Source: Oceanospirillaceae bacterium (GTDB lineage Bacteria; Pseudomonadota; Gammaproteobacteria; Pseudomonadales; Oceanobacteraceae). From it: DNA of 32,902 nucleotides. This document shows, one piece after another, positions 3,754 through 20,450 of this stretch. The position numbers and the translations under genes are program-made. Positions within the stretch are counted from its first letter, which is position 1. Every line of letters begins with the position of its first letter. Location: positions 1 through 32,902 of the forward strand of contig PAJK01000075.1 of assembly GCA_002706025.1 (NCBI GenBank), written 5' to 3'. Under the pieces are notes generated by a model that saw only the letters and a program-made list of their open reading frames with translations, searched no databases and had not been told where the DNA came from.

Positions 3754-5658
3754 TCAGATCATGTAATCGGAATCGTTCTGCTCATACTGTTTTTGTGCGA
3801 TGCGTTCAAACGGACGTACAACAAACAGCACCAGAATCACAGGCACTGCAATTAACAGAACGGCCGCAATTATGATTACAGACAACCATAAATGTTTCAT
3901 TGATCTGGCGTAGACCTGCTCCGCAGGGATCACCAGCGCAAAATATTCCGGCGGGTTCTGCGCCCGGGTAAACACGGAAGCAAAAGAAAAATATTCCCGG
4001 CCGTTAAGAAGCACCCGCTCAACCCGCTCCAGTCCCTGTGGGTTTTCCGTCAGCAACTGCAGATGGCGATAGGGTACAACCGCCATTTTCGCCGGTTTTA
4101 TCACTTCACTTTCGGCGAACCATTTCTGCCGCAGAAATTCCCGTGAAGAGGCCGGTACAGCAGCAATAGCCTGATCCAGAATCTCTTTCAGCGGTGCCAG
4201 TTCAGGACGCACACGGATGTGCAGTGCGTGGGGTAAATCCAGTAATTGCGGCACCTGTGTGTCCAGCACCAGTCCTTTCATGTACTGCTGCTGCAGCGTC
4301 TGACGTAACACCACTTCCGCATCGATAGCAGCATCCGCTTTACCCTGCTCCACCGCCCGCAAAGCATCGCGCAGGGAACGCATACTCTGCAGTTTAATTT
4401 GTGGATATTTTTCATTAAGAACAGAAACAATCGACCAGCCGCCAATTAACGCCAGAGTTTTGCCATTGAGATCGCTTAAATCGGTAATTTCTTCCGCATC
4501 GGCACGACGTACCAAAGCAAACGGCATATCAATCACCGGCTGGGTTAATTCATCCCGGGTTTTATCAATGGCAACGACTGGCTGCAGCATTTCCAGCTCG
4601 CCGGTATTAAACATATTCACCAGTTCCGCCCAGCTATAACCATTCACGAATTCCGTTTTCAGACCGATCATGCGTGACAATACCCGGATCATATCGACGC
4701 TGTAGCCGCTGGGATCACCACCGACGGAAAAATCCACCGGCAGCCAGTCCATTTCATTGGAAACATGCAGGGTTCCCAGCGTATTGACATACTGACGCTG
4801 CTGCTCAGTTAATTTCATCGGGCTCACCGGCGGCAGCCGGCGATAGGCATTATCGCTGTGATTACTGGCCAGCAGACTGCCGTCCTGCTGGTACAGATAC
4901 AGCTCACCATAAGCACTTAATGATTGTGCGCGCAGGTGAGAAGACAGGGTGGAGAAGGTAATATCCAGTGCCAGTACGTGATCCGTTCCCGGCAGTTTTT
5001 TAACGAAGCTCTGACCCGGCGCCTGCAGATGCTGAAACAGATAAGGCCGGGTTTTGCTCACACCCTGCGCGTCGGCCCGGGTAAACCAGATGCGCTCTCG
5101 CACATCATAATCACTGCTTTCAGAGCGGGAAAAATTGAGTTCAAAGTCACGGCTGTAATATTCAAAACGACGCTGGCGCTGCGCGCCCTCTCCTTCTACA
5201 GCAATAACAACCCAACGGTCAGCCGGAGTGGCATTCAGTTGCCGACGGATAACTTCACTGCTGTTCAGGTTCACCAGCTCAAACAGATCGCCGTCATCAA
5301 AACCGACATAAAGTGCATAAAATACCGGATTAGTGCGCAGCACTTCGGCAAATAACTCCCGCGTGCCATTATTAATCCAAGGGCCGCGTTGTTTATCCTG
5401 TTTGATCAGCGCCGGGAAATGTGACAGCACCTGTACGGTTTCCACTGCACTTGCGTCCATGTGCGCAAGATAATTGCGTGTTGCTGTCGCGGTCAGACGA
5501 TATTGTTCTTCCGCGGATTCCAGCGCCATATCGCGGCTGAACCAGAAATGCAGAGAAACAGATAAAAAAGCGGTAAGTAACGTAGTCAGCACAACCACCA
5601 GCATCAGACGCTGGCGGAGTTTCAGGCTTTGTTGTTCGAACTCGTCGTGCAACTGCAT
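3754..5658 (-). CDS. Periplasmic sensor: dCache with inserted SBP_bac_3 domain, no cytoplasmic output domain
   Basis: This is a 634-residue protein. TM1 spans about 18-39. A periplasmic Cache-like region follows (about 50-280, with FYALYVGFDDGDLFELV and VLALDITFSTLSSHL). A family-3 solute-binding domain runs from about 290 to 515 (LGTLHVSNEMDWLPVDF, GGDPSGYSVDMIRVL, DLNGKTLALIGGWS, GKADAAIDAE). The second Cache part then resumes (about 530-590, VERVLLNGREYFSFASVF) and leads into TM2 (about 592-614). Only 19 residues follow (PFERIAQKQY..., the start of a HAMP-like helix) before the stop. Relatives with this periplasmic layout normally continue into HAMP plus HD-GYP, GGDEF, kinase or chemoreceptor domains. 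Here the SDR gene begins 50 bp later, so no output domain can be restored by a frameshift. It is either a deletion remnant or a sensor signalling through a partner. Start ATG at 5658, with a purine-rich GGGAG site upstream. Confidence 0.8.
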   Translation of the reverse strand: MQLHDEFEQQSLKLRQRLMLVVVLTTLLTAFLSVSLHFWFSRDMALESAEEQYRLTATATRNYLAHMDASAVETVQVLSHFPALIKQDKQRGPWINNGTRELFAEVLRTNPVFYALYVGFDDGDLFELVNLNSSEVIRRQLNATPADRWVVIAVEGEGAQRQRRFEYYSRDFELNFSRSESSDYDVRERIWFTRADAQGVSKTRPYLFQHLQAPGQSFVKKLPGTDHVLALDITFSTLSSHLRAQSLSAYGELYLYQQDGSLLASNHSDNAYRRLPPVSPMKLTEQQRQYVNTLGTLHVSNEMDWLPVDFSVGGDPSGYSVDMIRVLSRMIGLKTEFVNGYSWAELVNMFNTGELEMLQPVVAIDKTRDELTQPVIDMPFALVRRADAEEITDLSDLNGKTLALIGGWSIVSVLNEKYPQIKLQSMRSLRDALRAVEQGKADAAIDAEVVLRQTLQQQYMKGLVLDTQVPQLLDLPHALHIRVRPELAPLKEILDQAIAAVPASSREFLRQKWFAESEVIKPAKMAVVPYRHLQLLTENPQGLERVERVLLNGREYFSFASVFTRAQNPPEYFALVIPAEQVYARSMKHLWLSVIIIAAVLLIAVPVILVLFVVRPFERIAQKQYEQNDSDYMI

Positions 5659-5779
5659 TCCCTGCTCCCTGTCTTACTCATGATGACGCTCACAAGCGCT
5701 GTAAGGATCATGCTTCCACATATAAGTGTAATCAAGATATCCCTTACTGTGACCCCACGCCACGGAAATTATCTGATGA

Positions 5780-7603
5780 TCAGGTCAATTCCTCATCCAG
5801 CTCACGGCTCAGCTGCTCAACAATACGCTGACGCAGCGCTTCTGCGGCATCCCGCCCGGCAATACCTTCTGCCAGCGTCAGCTTTTTACCGTCATCACTG
5901 TGCAGCTTAAGGCGGTAATAATCTGTCTGTCGTTTACCGGAAGTGGCCGTCACCGACTTATCCAGATGAATCTGCTGTGGTGAGCGGATCGTGGCGGAAC
6001 GGCTGTACAAAGGTTTACCAAACATGCGTCGTACGATGGTCACCTGACGCCCTTCGATCTGACATTCCAGTCCACGCCCCAGTACAAACACACCAATGAC
6101 AAACAGCAGGCCGCCAATTAATGCAAACACCGGCCCCATAACCCACAAAGCCCCGCCCTCCAGGCTGGCCTGCCAGGTAAGAAAAACACCGACAGCGGCA
6201 AATATAAATCCCATGGGTAACAGGGGTAAAAAGACCGCCTTATTGCGCCCTGCCGCGCTGTCCAGTGACAAACCGCCAGCACTCGCGGTGGTGCTGATCT
6301 GACGTGCAGCTGATTCCAGCGAACGCTGCTGTTTTTCACTGCGATCCTGCGCCTGCTGACTGACCGGTGGCTGCCAGGATGAACGCTGCTGACCGCGTAC
6401 CACCGGCACCTCCCAGCTGCGGGAAAATTCCATCGTTTCTGCCGCCCCCGGACCTGCCATATTAAGCAGACCTTCGCACTGAATTTCCCAACTGACAGTG
6501 CCGCGGCAACCTTCGGTCTGTTCACTTTCCGGCAGATTATCCGGCACATCAAATACCGCCCGCAGACGCTGACCAGAGGCCAGCATATCAACGCTTGCCA
6601 CGACACTTTCCTGCCACACAGTCCGATGATGCGTGCTGCGGTTTTTGCCGCTGCCGGTGGTGTAGGTATCGATGCAGCACAAACGTATTTCCGGGCGCTG
6701 ACTGAAGCGACCGCTGTTTACTTCAAAATAGCCGCCCACCTGGCCACCACAGCAGCCAGGCAACGGATCACAGAAAAACGGAGTGGCGCCTATGCGCAAA
6801 AACCGGGAGCGCATACGAAGTCCGCCGAACACCATGCCAGCCCCGGTAAGCGGAAAAATAAGCACCAGCAGCACAGCATAATCCCCGCTGCGCAACGCAT
6901 CAGGAATGGCTGCGACCATGATCGGCAACGAAATCAGAATAAAGGGAATGCCAACAACCATCATCACCCGGTAACTGCTGCGGGCACTGCTGCGGATGCC
7001 CTGACTGAATGCCGCACGGGCCGCTGTTGCCTCATGACCACCGGCATCTGCCAGACTGCTTAATGCCGCATAACGTGAACTTTTACTGCCTGAGCGACGA
7101 CCAAACCAGATAATGCCGGCTCCGGCCAGAGCAAACACCAGACCGAACAGACTGCTGAACAACAACATCACCGGACGGATACTGCGATCCAGCACAGACT
7201 CATCAGGATTTTGCGGATTAACCCAGACAACAGCACTATTGCTTTGCTTATGCCGCTTAAGATCACTGTACAGTTCCTGCCAGTAGCTGCCGATATTGTC
7301 GTAGCCATCGTAAAGACTGGCGTCACTGCCACTGTAGCTGGCACCATTAAAATCAAAACGATAACGGGTATTCACCCGATAAGTATCGGAGTTATCGCTG
7401 CGGCGGGAATCCAGTTCAAGCATTTCGATCTGTGCACTGACCGGCAGCCAGCTTTGACTGCCATACCATTTCAGCAGCGGTGACAGCGCCATAAAGAAGA
7501 TGACAGCAAGCCCGGCGAGCAGAAAAATCCCGCCAAATACAACAATGAACCAACCTCCTCTGCGCTGTTTAACTCCCGGTTTTTGCTGTCGTCCACTGCG
7601 CAT
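5780..7603 (-). CDS. Large membrane protein with N-terminal DUF3592 domain
   Basis: The 607-residue protein begins with a TM helix (about 17-39), then a DUF3592-like soluble module (52-140: SWLPVSAQIE, YRVNTRYRFDFNGASYSG, AVVWVNPQNPDESVL) and a second TM (145-168). Two more helices lie at about 211-233 and 243-262 and a pair near 440-495, followed by a C-terminal soluble domain of PH-like appearance. DUF3592 (PF12158) has no established role. The middle soluble part contains a Cys cluster, FFCDPLPGCCGG (277-288). I chose the ATG at 7603, because AAGGA lies 8 bases upstream. The open frame extends to a GTG at 7666, but that gives a basic, non-hydrophobic extension. The sensor gene lies 121 bp downstream on the same strand. 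Confidence 0.7.
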   Translation of the reverse strand: MRSGRQQKPGVKQRRGGWFIVVFGGIFLLAGLAVIFFMALSPLLKWYGSQSWLPVSAQIEMLELDSRRSDNSDTYRVNTRYRFDFNGASYSGSDASLYDGYDNIGSYWQELYSDLKRHKQSNSAVVWVNPQNPDESVLDRSIRPVMLLFSSLFGLVFALAGAGIIWFGRRSGSKSSRYAALSSLADAGGHEATAARAAFSQGIRSSARSSYRVMMVVGIPFILISLPIMVAAIPDALRSGDYAVLLVLIFPLTGAGMVFGGLRMRSRFLRIGATPFFCDPLPGCCGGQVGGYFEVNSGRFSQRPEIRLCCIDTYTTGSGKNRSTHHRTVWQESVVASVDMLASGQRLRAVFDVPDNLPESEQTEGCRGTVSWEIQCEGLLNMAGPGAAETMEFSRSWEVPVVRGQQRSSWQPPVSQQAQDRSEKQQRSLESAARQISTTASAGGLSLDSAAGRNKAVFLPLLPMGFIFAAVGVFLTWQASLEGGALWVMGPVFALIGGLLFVIGVFVLGRGLECQIEGRQVTIVRRMFGKPLYSRSATIRSPQQIHLDKSVTATSGKRQTDYYRLKLHSDDGKKLTLAEGIAGRDAAEALRQRIVEQLSRELDEELT

Positions 7604-15465: not shown

Positions 15466-15497
15466 GGCAGCGCAGTTTACTGATCGCTGCCTTTTTT
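15466..15497. terminator. Bidirectional intrinsic terminator between yhhJ and the VF530 gene
   Basis: Stem GGCAGCG (15466-15472) / CGCTGCC (15485-15491) encloses 12 bases that can pair further (CAGT/ACTG). A run of six T (15492-15497) follows on the plus strand, ending the yhiI-rbbA-yhhJ transcript. On the minus strand the hairpin is followed by a T-rich TGCTTTTTATTT, so it can also stop the VF530 transcript. The plus-strand half (15477 onward) overlaps the last codons of the VF530 gene. Confidence 0.85.
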
Positions 15498-15860
15498 GGC
15501 TTTAGCCCAGGGGTCTGTTCCTGATGTTTTAGCAGCGGATGTTCTGCTGCCGGAACCGGCGCGGTTACCTGACGGCGCAGATTTTTTCGCTGACGGCTGG
15601 CTTTTTTGCTTTAAGCGCTGACGTATTTTTCCCGCGCTCTCGCCTTCTCTAAAGCCGATATAAACGGTTTCCACCTGCTCCCGGGCCCACAGCGTTTTGC
15701 GCAGAAATTTCAGACTGGATTTTATGCTGGGGTCGGAACGGAAGCAGTTAATGCGCACCAGGTCGCCCAGTGTTACCCAACCGAATTCATCGACCAGCTC
15801 TGTCAGAATGGTTTCCAGGGTAACGCCATCCAGATGGCGGCGGGGATTTTCTGTGCTCAT
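15477..15860 (-). CDS. VF530-family (DUF2132) DNA-binding protein
   Basis: The 127-residue protein has a conserved N-terminal domain (about 8-75): [60 protein letters not shown] in outline. The motif NCF[19 protein letters not shown] is diagnostic of the small helical VF530/DUF2132 family (PF09905), described as DNA-binding. The C-terminal 50 residues are a Lys/Ser/Arg-rich disordered tail longer than in typical members. The ATG at 15860 overlaps the glycosyltransferase stop by four bases (ATGA), which indicates coupled translation. Its own stop codon TAA (15477-15479) lies in the loop of the terminator hairpin. Confidence 0.85.
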
Positions 15861-17140
15861 TCATTATTACCTTGTGTATGGCGGTTTTTCGCTTCGATCC
15901 ACTGCGCCATATATTGTGTACTTTTCATGCTGTGGTGGCGCAGCATCATACCGTAAAAATGCTGCTGACGGTGGCCCGCGGGATCCTGCTGTATTTTACT
16001 TACCGCGTGCGCCAGCCGTGGTGCGTGATCGGCAAAGGCAAAGCGCTGTCCGATCAGCTGACGGCCATTAATGCTTAAGCTCTGCCACAGCGTTTCGTCG
16101 TTATACAGATGCTCCGCCTGTTGTGCAAAATCACTGGCGTTATCCGCTATCAGACCACAGGGGCTGTCAGGATGATACATGCCTTCCGCGCCAATGGCGG
16201 TTGTCACTGCCGGGGTGCCACATTGGGCCGCATCAATTAATTTACCCTTTAAACCCGCACCGAAACGCAGTGGTGCCAGCAGTACCCGGGCACTGCTGAT
16301 CACCTGATGCGCATCTTCCGCCCAGCCGCGGACCAGAAAACCCTGTTTTTCATTGTGCAGCTGAGTGGCTTTTTTCGGCGGATAAGCACCATACACATGC
16401 AGTTCCGCCTGAGGTAGCTGACGACGGATCAATGGCCAGATCTGTTCTTTGAGGTAGCGCACCGCATCCCAGTTGGGTTCATGGCGGAAATTACCGATGG
16501 ACACGAAATGCTGGCGTTCTGTCATTGCCGGTACATCCGTAGCGTCGCTTTGCTGTTCCATAAATGGCAGATACAGCAGCTGCGATTGCGGTAGCTGAAA
16601 CTGCTCTGTCAGCCACTGCATTTCAAATTCTGAAATCATCAGTGTCAGATCACAGCGCAGAATGGCAGCAATTTCGCGGATGGCCAGTTCACTGTGAGCA
16701 AACTCTGGTGTGGGCCTGAGCGGCAGAGCATCCGGCTGCGCTTTCAGCATGGCGTGGCGCGCATGACGCAGTGAATGCAGATCTTCGGTATCGAGAATGC
16801 GCACCGCCTGCGGGCAATATTTTTCCACCCGCCAGCCAAACTGCTCTTCCATCATAAAGCGGTCAAACATCACCGCCTGTGGATTCAGCTGCTGAATAAA
16901 ATCATCAAACGACGAGTGATTCAGGGCAATGGTCTGCGGCTGAATATTCATCGCCTGCAGATTAACAGCGTGGGCGCTGTGCTCCGCCGGTGACGCATAG
17001 ACCACATTAAAACCCTGCTGCTGAAAGGCACGGATCAGTTGCAACATACGGCTGCCGGCGGCCGAGGATGCCGGTTCCGGCCAGACGTAGCCGATAACCA
17101 GCAGGGTCTGTGATAAAGGAATGTCGGAAGCTTGATTCAT
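15857..17140 (-). CDS. Glycosyltransferase, GT-B fold (group 1/GT4-like)
   Basis: The 427-residue protein has an N-terminal Rossmann half starting at once with [20 protein letters not shown] (13-32) and a C-terminal donor half: [74 protein letters not shown]. These are the donor-site motifs of GT-B group 1 enzymes, which move a sugar from a nucleotide-sugar to an acceptor in the cytoplasm. Acceptor and sugar are unknown, and there is no polysaccharide cluster around it. The ATG at 17140 has no Shine-Dalgarno site. A TATAAT lies only six bases upstream (see the promoter entry), so the mRNA may be leaderless. It is coupled to the VF530 gene. Confidence 0.88.
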
Positions 17141-18747: not shown

Positions 18748-19563
18748 GTGCTGATTATCGCTAAAATCCTGATCACCTTTCTGACCGTTGTTCTGCTGGC
18801 GCAGGTCGCTCAGCGTATGAGCCCACGTCATGCTGGCCTGCTGGCAGGTTTCCCGCTGGGAACGGCCATCGCACTGTACTTTTTTGGCTGGCAACAGGGC
18901 GCTGAGTTTGCCGCTGCCGGTGCTGTGTATACCCTCTCCGGCCTTACTTCGGCGATCTGTCTGGCCTTCGGTTACTGGCTGGTGATCCGCAAATTACCCG
19001 GCCTGCGCTGGCTTCCACTGGCCGTTGCCAGTGGCTTCAGCTGTTTTTTAGCATCGTCTTTTCTGCTGCAGTATCTGCCCCCATCACCGGCTGTCAGTCT
19101 GGCGGTGATCATTGCTGCGATTCTGCTGTTCCGCACCTTGTTCAAGCACATACCCGAAACCCATATCGATAACAGCGCAGCTCCGCAGAACCGTCTGAGC
19201 CAGCTGCTGGCGGGCAAAACGGCTACCCTGCTGTTCCGCGCATCCATTGCGACCGCATCCATTCTGCTGATTACCGCGCTGGCCGATGTACTCGGCCCTT
19301 CGCGGGCGGGTCTGCTGGCGGCTTTCCCGGTGAGCTTCTTCCCGCTGATTCTGATCCTGCACATCAGCCATGGCGCCAACGTCCTCAGCTGCACCATCAA
19401 ACACTACCCGGACGGGATTGGCGCGCTGGCGGTGTACGCACTGGCGGTGATTTACCTGTATCCGGCGCTGGGGCTGCATATCGGCACCGCAGCATCTCTG
19501 CTGTGCTCCGTCGCCTACCTGCTGATCTATGGTCAGCTGCGCACGCGCCTGCAAAAAAGCTGA
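18748..19563 (+). CDS. Eight-helix membrane protein with two similar halves
   Basis: The 271-residue protein is almost wholly hydrophobic. The first half contains LITFLTVVLLAQVAQRMSPR and HAGLLAGFPLGTAIALYF (about 9-45). The second half contains ATASILLITALADVLGPSR and AGLLAAFPVSFFPLILIL (about 170-210). The shared signature is GLLA[GA]FP plus a preceding Pro/Arg loop, suggesting a duplicated four-helix unit and hence a transporter-like architecture. A short soluble linker (HIPETHIDNSAAPQNRLSQLL) joins the halves. I cannot place it in a named family with certainty. The GTG start at 18748 is the only in-frame choice near the first helix, and no good ribosome site is seen. Confidence 0.72.
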   Translation: MLIIAKILITFLTVVLLAQVAQRMSPRHAGLLAGFPLGTAIALYFFGWQQGAEFAAAGAVYTLSGLTSAICLAFGYWLVIRKLPGLRWLPLAVASGFSCFLASSFLLQYLPPSPAVSLAVIIAAILLFRTLFKHIPETHIDNSAAPQNRLSQLLAGKTATLLFRASIATASILLITALADVLGPSRAGLLAAFPVSFFPLILILHISHGANVLSCTIKHYPDGIGALAVYALAVIYLYPALGLHIGTAASLLCSVAYLLIYGQLRTRLQKS

Positions 19564-19587
19564 AAAACCGCGTTCAGCTGGTACAAT
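19560..19587 (+). promoter_or_regulatory. Promoter of the ART-like gene
   Basis: CTGAAA (19560-19565), a 16-base spacer and TACAAT (19582-19587) match sigma-70 elements at four and five of six positions. The predicted start near 19594 leaves a leader of about 85 bases that can form two hairpins. Confidence 0.5.
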
Positions 19588-19591
19588 GCGA

Positions 19592-19658
19592 CTGCTGAAA
19601 AGCAGACCAGCAAAAACACTATAAGCAGAATGCCCGGCCGGACCTATGTTGCGGCCGG
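19592..19658 (+). promoter_or_regulatory. Structured 5' leader of the ART-like gene
   Basis: Hairpin 1 is CTGCT-GAAA-AGCAG (19592-19605), closed by a GNRA tetraloop and placed right at the predicted transcript start. Hairpin 2 has arms CCGGCCG (19634-19640) and CGGCCGG (19652-19658) with an 11-base loop, 20 bases before the start codon. Neither has a T-run. They may stabilise the mRNA or limit ribosome access. Confidence 0.4.
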
Positions 19659-19678: not shown

Positions 19679-20248
19679 ATGAAAGAATTTACCACCCCCG
19701 ATTTTCTCAAAGACGCAGCAGACCTGATTTCCGCCGACGGCTTTGCGACCTCGAATATCTGGTATCACGGCACAGCATCCGGACTGGTCGAAGCCATCAA
19801 AACCTCTGGTCTGAAAGGCTCGGGGGATGCCGAACTGCTGCAACGTCAGATGAAAACCCTGGGAACCATTGGTCACGAAGCCAGCGATCAGCAGGACCCG
19901 CTGTTCGTCACCCAGAGTAAAGAGCTGGCGTATTTCTGGGCTAACCAGAAAGCCCATACCCGCACTCTCTACATGCAGCAGGAAGAAACACCTGTGGTGT
20001 TTAAACTGGAACTGCCGGAAGAGCTGAACAAGCTGGTCATCACCGATGCCGGTGGTGCAGCACTGCTGATGGAACCAGGCAATATTTATCTGCTGTGGCT
20101 GAAAGAGCTGTACAAAGAACTGGGACAGCAGATGCCGGAACTGAACCCGTTAAAATGCGACCGCATGGATTATCTGAACAAACTGGGTCTGGCCTATGTC
20201 GCCGGCGATGTTGATCCTCAGTATCTGACCCTGCTGCAGTCGCACTGA
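19679..20248 (+). CDS. Hypothetical protein with ADP-ribosyltransferase-like N-terminal motifs
   Basis: This 189-residue soluble protein is not one I can name. Residues 28-47 read WYHGTASGLVEAIKTSGLKG, which resembles the first strand and helix of PARP/KptA-type ADP-ribosyltransferase folds (YHGT, then a helix ending in GL). Residues 75-88, LFVTQSKELAYFWA, resemble the second core element (T-x-S-x-x-x-A-x-x-[YW]A). A strand VVFKLELPEEL (107-117) follows and could supply the acidic residue. The C-terminal third (140-189) is helical and unassigned. No toxin-like secretion signal or antitoxin partner is seen. I chose the ATG at 19679 because it opens the conserved-looking part; an ATG at 19646 lies in the leader hairpin. 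It has its own promoter and terminator. Confidence 0.7.
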   Translation: MKEFTTPDFLKDAADLISADGFATSNIWYHGTASGLVEAIKTSGLKGSGDAELLQRQMKTLGTIGHEASDQQDPLFVTQSKELAYFWANQKAHTRTLYMQQEETPVVFKLELPEELNKLVITDAGGAALLMEPGNIYLLWLKELYKELGQQMPELNPLKCDRMDYLNKLGLAYVAGDVDPQYLTLLQSH

Positions 20249-20271
20249 TCTGTGCGCTGATCTGCTCCACC

Positions 20272-20297
20272 AAAAAGCCGCTGTTGCGGCTTTTTTT
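20272..20297 (+). terminator. Intrinsic terminator after the ART-like gene
   Basis: An A-run, stem GCCGC (20277-20281), loop TGTT, stem GCGGC (20286-20290) and seven T (20291-20297) form a classical rho-independent terminator, 24 bases after the stop codon. The A-run also pairs with the T-run. Confidence 0.9.
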
Positions 20298-20450
20298 GTG
20301 CGCGCAGCGCAGTCAGAACAGCCCACACGCATGTCATATTAAGCAATTACGATATCAGCGGAACTCACAGCCACGGATACTGACAACAGGTGCTGAGTTC
20401 AGAAACTCTCATCAGCCATTCGCCACAGACAACAGAACAGGAGTTATGTT

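Follow-up and report, generated by a model that had tools for sequence, protein, structure and literature searches.

The 32,902-nucleotide stretch of Oceanospirillaceae DNA analyzed here (the window) carries a gene whose product an initial annotation had read as a possible ADP-ribosyltransferase (ART)-fold protein of an unnamed family, raising the question of whether that fold is real and what such a protein would act on. The mechanical open reading frame (ORF) comprises 200 aa from an ATG at 19646; since homologs begin at the MKEFTTP position, the ATG at 19679 is preferred as the start (Table 1). The reading frame and the motifs that had singled it out, WYHGT, a following GL (residues 44-45), and FVTQSKELAYFWA, are real, and the family is indeed unnamed, with no match of the window protein in Pfam (0 families at E ≤ 1), NCBIfam, PHROGs, or PADLOC.

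Table 1. Coordinates of the ART-fold gene, its conserved sites, and its flanking signals in the window.
Feature	Position	Strand	Remarks
ART-fold gene	19679..20248	+	189 aa, stop included in coordinates; from ORF listing, start from homologs, predicted fold
WYHGT motif, residues 28-32	19760..19774	+	Each of five residues 111/111 distinct members; HGT as in KptA and diphtheria toxin
Invariant Asp50	19826..19828	+	111/111 distinct members
FVTQSKELAYFWA segment, residues 76-88	19904..19942	+	Core strand 75-78, then helix 81-99 in model
Invariant Arg95	19961..19963	+	111/111 distinct members
Nearly invariant Glu103	19985..19987	+	Glu 105/111; 4 Asp, 1 Gln, 1 Gly
Invariant Asp123-x-Gly125	20045..20053	+	111/111 distinct members
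Invariant Arg162	20162..20164	+	111/111 distinct members
Invariant Tyr173	20195..20197	+	111/111 distinct members; late strand 171-174 of model
Promoter-like CTGAAA-16-TACAAT, TG before second hexamer	19560..19587	+	1 found vs 0.7 expected by chance
Intrinsic terminator hairpin	20272..20297	+	Fold -16.7 kcal/mol for 20262-20302, z -3.63

Searches of genome contigs found 135 relatives of the ART protein, from which 80 loci were kept, with identities among the kept members down to 41%; the closest named relative, from Thalassolituus sp. UBA1087, is 79% identical. With the window's own genome counted each time, the gene occurs in 30/55 genomes of a sample of relatives, in 32/293 of an order-level sample, and in 8/369 of a class-level sample. 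We rejected a viral origin, as a pattern scan of IMG/VR and a tblastn search of phages returned no relatives at the sensitivities used, and one match lies on a plasmid (Vibrio sp. THAF190c). PADLOC, which covers described defence systems, likewise gave no match for two family members, and the matches of the single protein in a PDB sequence search (designed repeats, SOX, mu-crystallin) read as chance. This is a real and previously undescribed family.

Conservation was counted over 111 distinct members, the window protein included. Within FVTQSKELAYFWA, Ser80 and Trp87 are present in 111/111, Gln79 in 106/111, and Glu82 in 102/111. The bait peptides used to collect the 80 loci were WYHGT and TQSKELA, so the conservation of these segments there is partly built in; among 17 further distinct proteins from the class and order samples, gathered without baits, His30, Ser80, Trp87, Arg95, Asp123, Arg162, and Tyr173 are each present in 17/17, and Gln79 and Glu82 fall to 12/17 and 10/17. 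Of the candidate active-site residues listed by the initial annotation, His30 and Ser80 therefore stand, each 111/111 as are Gly31 and Thr32, and Tyr85 stands in part (Tyr in 50/81 sequences, Phe in 29/81, another residue in 2/81). The proposed glutamates are not conserved, with Glu at position 111 in 13/81, at 114 in 55/81, and at 115 in 41/81. Rows dropped from the sets were L018 (contains an X) and L026 (no in-frame start codon) from A1, and L039 from A2; set A4 holds 49 of the available members.

The fold was predicted with AlphaFold2 for the window protein, using 80 aligned sequences (pLDDT 86.5, pTM 0.84), and for a diverged member, L105, using 49 (pLDDT 88.7, pTM 0.85). Both models contain the split β-sheet of the ART fold around an NAD pocket; in that of the window protein, His30, invariant in the 111 distinct members, lies in the first core strand (residues 27-33). 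VIA-align places KptA/Tpt1 first for both models, at Z 9.0 (rmsd 2.1 Å over 87 residues) and Z 9.5 (2.5 Å over 87 residues), followed by Arr at 7.4 and 7.1 and then by toxins, PARPs, and DarT at about 4.4 to 6.5. Foldseek returned no match at E ≤ 0.001 for either model; ARTs (KptA/Tpt1, DarT1, pertussis toxin, cholera toxin) fill its best 20 and best 27 rows. Structure prediction and fold search on two models thus put ARTs on top, as the proposed kinship with KptA had anticipated, and on the strength of these models the family almost certainly adopts an ART fold.

At the sequence level, profile comparison recovers a weak similarity to KptA around WYHGT...GL, the stretch that had prompted the comparison. 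The KptA family PF01885 is touched by 57/80 members at E-values up to 1 (best 0.0014); the same Pfam scan also yields FAM25 for 24/80 members and, at comparable E-values, unrelated families for others, which leaves the PF01885 matches with little weight of their own. Homolog L105 matches the KptA model NF002014 at E 0.0017, with 18.2 bits against a cut-off of 239; a profile of the 80 members matches the KptA structure 6e3a at E 0.0076; and hhalign gives 88.9% over 22 columns against seven KptAs and 78.2% against three. Where shown, the matched stretch is WYHGT...GL, to which the L105 and 6e3a matches add about 20 residues. Scores remain far below the KptA family cut-offs of PF01885 and NF002014, and global hhalign alignment to KptA finds no sensible extension past the first motif. 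At one locus, L149, an ORF at 2021-2584 on the minus strand, presumably a NADAR-domain-like protein, overlaps the start of a gammaproteobacterial KptA at 1462-2028.

The likeness to KptA covers the NAD lobe alone: in nearly all rows, the KptA side of the structural alignment starts at chain residue 86-95, and the model of the window protein reaches its first core strand after only 26 residues. In Tpt1, Arg18, His19, and Arg66 (CthTpt1 numbering) lie ahead of the NAD lobe, according to a passage of PMC6333775. An N-terminal RNA lobe with counterparts of these residues is absent from the window protein, and we therefore reject its identity as KptA; it is an ART-fold protein nearest to KptA in fold, yet not a KptA.

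A clue to function comes from isocitrate lyase (ICL), an enzyme that enables bacterial growth on fats and acetate. This neighbor could not be seen from the window. When ORFs of at least 80 aa around the ART gene were clustered, a threshold that a very small antitoxin could escape, ICL was the sole frequent neighbor (55/80 loci), followed by an antisense ORF inside the ICL gene (28/80), a LysR-like cluster (20/80), and a malate synthase G-like cluster (15/80). The enzyme is of the NCBIfam PRK06498 type (NF005074, 830 bits from a partial ORF against a cut-off of 446). A tblastn census finds ICL in 57/80 loci, directly upstream and on the same strand in 56/80; in the one other, L067, a lone ICL gene lies 3.4 kb downstream of the ART gene. 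Of the 23/80 loci without ICL, L070 starts at a contig end and the others are mostly from Thalassolituus, Oleispira, Bacterioplanes, and Bermanella. In the two Neptuniibacter loci L061 and L069, and in genome G570, ICL genes flank the ART gene on both sides, on the same strand.

The pairing recurs in loci L112-L147 of the whole-genome samples, which were chosen without bait peptides; the samples overlap partly with the 80 loci, since nine of their ICLs are identical over a 240-residue core to one from that set. Here ICL lies within 1.5 kb of the ART gene in 28/36 loci. Family f1, that of the window itself, accounts for seven of the eight misses and G446 for the eighth, so that the count outside f1 is 28/29. 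On the 1.7-Mb plasmid pTHAF190c_a of Vibrio sp. THAF190c (locus L151), ICL (4517-5797) and the ART gene (6001-6525) again lie side by side; the plasmid ICL shares 86% identity with the one from an uncultured Oceanospirillaceae bacterium (L106), and PLSDB lists no gene between 4517 and 6525.

Other genes found in the 80 loci are malate synthase G (21), malate synthase A (6), a LysR-type regulator (24), and AceK (6), the last always downstream of the ART gene on the same strand. Six loci from Zhongshania and Spongiibacter (L053, L054, L059, L082, L083, L086) have on one strand the order ICL, ART, a gene that we take to be RraA-like, and AceK, and in L053 a presumably flavin-type oxidoreductase-like ORF precedes AceK. 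We also considered the ART as the toxin of a toxin-antitoxin pair and rejected this, there being, among ORFs of at least 80 aa, no adjacent antitoxin and no frequent neighbor other than ICL.

The neighbors named in the initial annotation, a transglutaminase-type protein and a nucleoside deoxyribosyltransferase, are real (Transglut_core, 1.2e-24; Nuc_deoxyrib_tr, 6.5e-32), and the deoxyribosyltransferase cluster is local, being found in 9/80 loci. The gene at 18748-19563 encodes a membrane protein of 271 aa that reaches no Pfam cut-off, and it adjoins the ART gene in 10/80 loci. We rejected these window neighbors as functional partners because they are local (deoxyribosyltransferase 9/80, membrane protein 10/80). 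Further upstream, at 15477-17140, a gene for a VF530 DNA-binding protein overlaps a glycosyltransferase gene, and relatives of the two occur near the ART gene in 6/80 and 10/80 loci.

The gene had also been described as a stand-alone unit with its own promoter, structured leader, and terminator. The first and last of these are broadly supported. The terminator hairpin is more stable than chance would give (Table 1) and is not listed by the consensus scan; the promoter-like site of the window is by itself at chance level, and the corresponding TANAAT box is enriched family-wide, occurring within 90 bases upstream of the ART gene in 39/56 linked loci (shuffles: mean 13.8, maximum 22) and in 11/21 unlinked loci (mean 1.9, maximum 7). 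The leader does not fold above chance (z -0.90). In linked loci the gap between ICL and ART measures 95-690 bases and holds a terminator-like hairpin in 54/56 cases, against 0/56 after mononucleotide shuffling. With these gap hairpins and the TANAAT enrichment, stand-alone organization seems to hold across the family, and from these sequence signals ICL and ART look adjacent but separately transcribed, an arrangement that would allow the modulator to be produced on its own schedule.

Beyond adjacency, the ART gene tracks one lineage of ICL. In a tree of 242 ICLs, a single clade with support 1.0 contains 76/76 sequences from gene-bearing genomes and 0/166 from gene-lacking ones, the latter comprising 162 of the 167 order-sample genomes with an ICL over cut-off plus four from the relatives sample. 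Enlarging the tree with order- and class-level ICLs gives 103/105 gene-bearing and 0/166 gene-lacking in the clade (support 0.96), and the largest tree gives 103/105 and 0/187 (support 0.83); the 105 include repeats, with 91 distinct by the 240-residue core. The trees leave out L044, L058, L065, L100, and L108, whose ICLs are too short, and L061, L068, and L069 gave two pieces each; the largest also leaves out G053 and G418 (already present), G311 and G229 (no locus), and G248 (a fragment). The clade's sister group consists of ICLs from the gene-lacking genomes G098 and G238; ICLs right beside the lineage thus exist without the ART gene, which weighs against the proposed pairing. Eleven ICL positions come close to being diagnostic (present in at least 95% of the 76 gene-bearing against at most 5% of the 166 gene-lacking sequences), and residues specific to the clade include F60, A218, H238, V276, A345, N445, and S528 (L053 numbering). 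The closest solved ICL structure is 6g1o, which we take to be the ICL of Pseudomonas aeruginosa.

The two gene-bearing ICLs outside the clade, G211 and G321, are of one genus, and no ARTs in the set diverge more than theirs (distance at least 1.24 to any other), as expected of a jointly diverging pair. Genomes with and without the gene occur together in at least four genera, the members compared being 3 + 2 (g301), 2 + 1 (g9), 1 + 1 (g308), and 1 + 3 (g330), bearing plus lacking. Within these genera, ICL identity between the two states is 74-79%, and their gene-bearing ICLs share 86-89% identity with ICLs from gene-bearing genomes in general, a split that, judged from these identities, is not easily accounted for by species descent alone. 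In the order sample, ICL is strong in 31/32 gene-bearing genomes and over cut-off in 167/261 gene-lacking ones (p = 3.7e-5, uncorrected for descent).

Such a pattern might also arise if the ART had an unrelated function and were merely co-inherited with a linked ICL, a reading to which the physical linkage in most lineages and the separate transcription units would lend themselves. Family f1 speaks against it: in the f1 loci examined the two genes are unlinked, and both are nonetheless kept, with ICL over cut-off in 25 of 28 gene-bearing genomes, fragments on separate contigs in two, and none in one, the window's own. All 20 f1 ICLs sampled fall inside the ART-associated clade. Nor does any of the 187 gene-lacking ICLs fall there, so that in this sample the putative target lineage is not seen without the ART gene. 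The ancestral pairing could partly reflect inheritance as a linked block; we regard co-inheritance as the whole explanation as very unlikely, and hold the family to be, with high probability, a functional partner of ICL.

The window's genome, a draft assembly of 4.25 Mb in 118 contigs at 93% completeness, shows malate synthase G and no ICL, its best match (1.2e-8) resembling a related lyase of about 297 aa found elsewhere. Because 8/8 relatives of the same genus have ICL, an assembly gap is likelier than loss.

The presence of AceK is unrelated to that of the ART gene in the order sample (14/32 gene-bearing against 110/261 gene-lacking genomes, p = 0.85); the ART thus does not require AceK, and we reject the idea that it stands in for AceK. 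This independence points to ICL, not isocitrate dehydrogenase, as its partner. The genomic tie of the ART family to a central metabolic enzyme is strong and specific, and the function behind it we infer.

What the protein would do to ICL depends on its active site. As described in part of PMC6333775, Tpt1 and diphtheria toxin hold the adenosine 2'-OH through the His and Thr of their HGT motif; in the present family the motif is invariant (111/111), the adenosine-ribose contact being known for Tpt1 only. Because global profile alignment to KptA failed to map the catalytic triad, we assigned it by eye as H30-F76-A172, which is neither H-Y-E nor H-H-V. By this mapping, the second position is Phe in 108, Tyr in 2, and Cys in 1 of the 111 members, and the third is Ala in 103, Gly in 5, and Val in 3. 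On this assignment the canonical triad looks degraded, and, to judge from these residues, the family may lack catalysis.

This leads to the main rival interpretation, a pseudo-enzyme: the ART-fold protein would be a regulatory subunit that senses NAD(H) or nucleotides and attaches to ICL, with no transfer of ADP-ribose. The H-F-A triad (again by eye), the invariant pocket motif, and the pairing with ICL are all compatible with it. The invariance of the polar residues Asp50, Ser80, Arg95, Asp123, Arg162, and Tyr173, however, suggests chemistry, and KptA itself works with an H-H-V triad that has no catalytic Glu, according to an excerpt of PMC8946771. We consider the pseudo-enzyme a doubtful reading, if a serious one. 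Less likely again is a KptA-like activity directed at RNA or at a small molecule, such as a glyoxylate-pathway metabolite, and not at the ICL protein. In its favor, no fold is closer than that of KptA, and a section of PMC9503650 assigns to the H-H-h clade mainly RNA repair, the modification of small molecules, and action on soluble ADP-ribose derivatives; the part of Tpt1 bearing Arg18, His19, and Arg66 is absent here, however, and an RNA role would leave the tracking of one ICL lineage unexplained.

Two considerations lead us to favor an NAD-dependent modification of ICL: the pocket motif and several polar residues do not vary, and an ICL lineage dedicated to the ART implies that the two proteins are in direct contact. 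The main reading, to which we give a probability of roughly 50%, is that the family is an NAD-binding ART-fold modulator of its cognate ICL, probably an ADP-ribosyltransferase. The ART would bind NAD+ and modify the ICL, most likely by mono-ADP-ribosylation, or, if it performs no catalysis, would bind ICL in an NAD-dependent manner; carbon flow through the glyoxylate shunt would thereby follow the NAD state of the cell. The fold and the pairing with one ICL lineage are well supported; as to the chemistry, we infer it, and enzymatic ADP-ribosylation of ICL itself is a tentative proposal. Somewhat more speculative is its fullest form, in which an NAD+-consuming ART reversibly ADP-ribosylates one ICL lineage in marine, often hydrocarbon-degrading Gammaproteobacteria and so gives the isocitrate branch point a second post-translational control, one that couples shunt flux to NAD status. 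On the main reading, the ART would play towards ICL the role that AceK plays towards isocitrate dehydrogenase.

None of the literature matches listed joins, in title or abstract, an ART-fold protein to isocitrate lyase. If the proposal is true, an NAD-fold modifier dedicated to ICL would be new, and endogenous bacterial ADP-ribosylation, outside toxins and defence, would gain a metabolic target; the family is probably an unnoticed controller of the glyoxylate-shunt switch that permits growth on fats and acetate. Two purified proteins would be enough for a direct test of the hypothesis.

Among known systems, KptA/Tpt1 (PF01885) shares with the family the ART fold (Z 9.0-9.5), the HGT motif, and the helix and GL that follow it. 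In contrast to KptA/Tpt1, the family has no N-terminal RNA lobe, has Phe in place of His at the second triad position (by eye), and has a longer C-terminal half with several helices. The rifampicin ADP-ribosyltransferase Arr is also a small single-domain ART, second in fold similarity for both models; it differs in that the Pfam scans gave no sequence match to it, and nothing points to drug modification. DarT, ParT, and RES toxins have the ART fold in common with the family and appear in the Foldseek lists, whereas the family has neither a constant small partner gene nor a PADLOC match, its frequent neighbor being a metabolic enzyme. In the textbook scheme, control of the glyoxylate branch falls to AceK, which phosphorylates isocitrate dehydrogenase and is a kinase/phosphatase whose chemistry involves no ART. 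AceK would be alike by hypothesis, as a modifier enzyme encoded at a glyoxylate-bypass locus, and differs from the present family in fold, the presence of the two genes being uncorrelated. ICL of P. aeruginosa is itself under robust allosteric control, as stated in a portion of PMC11982470.
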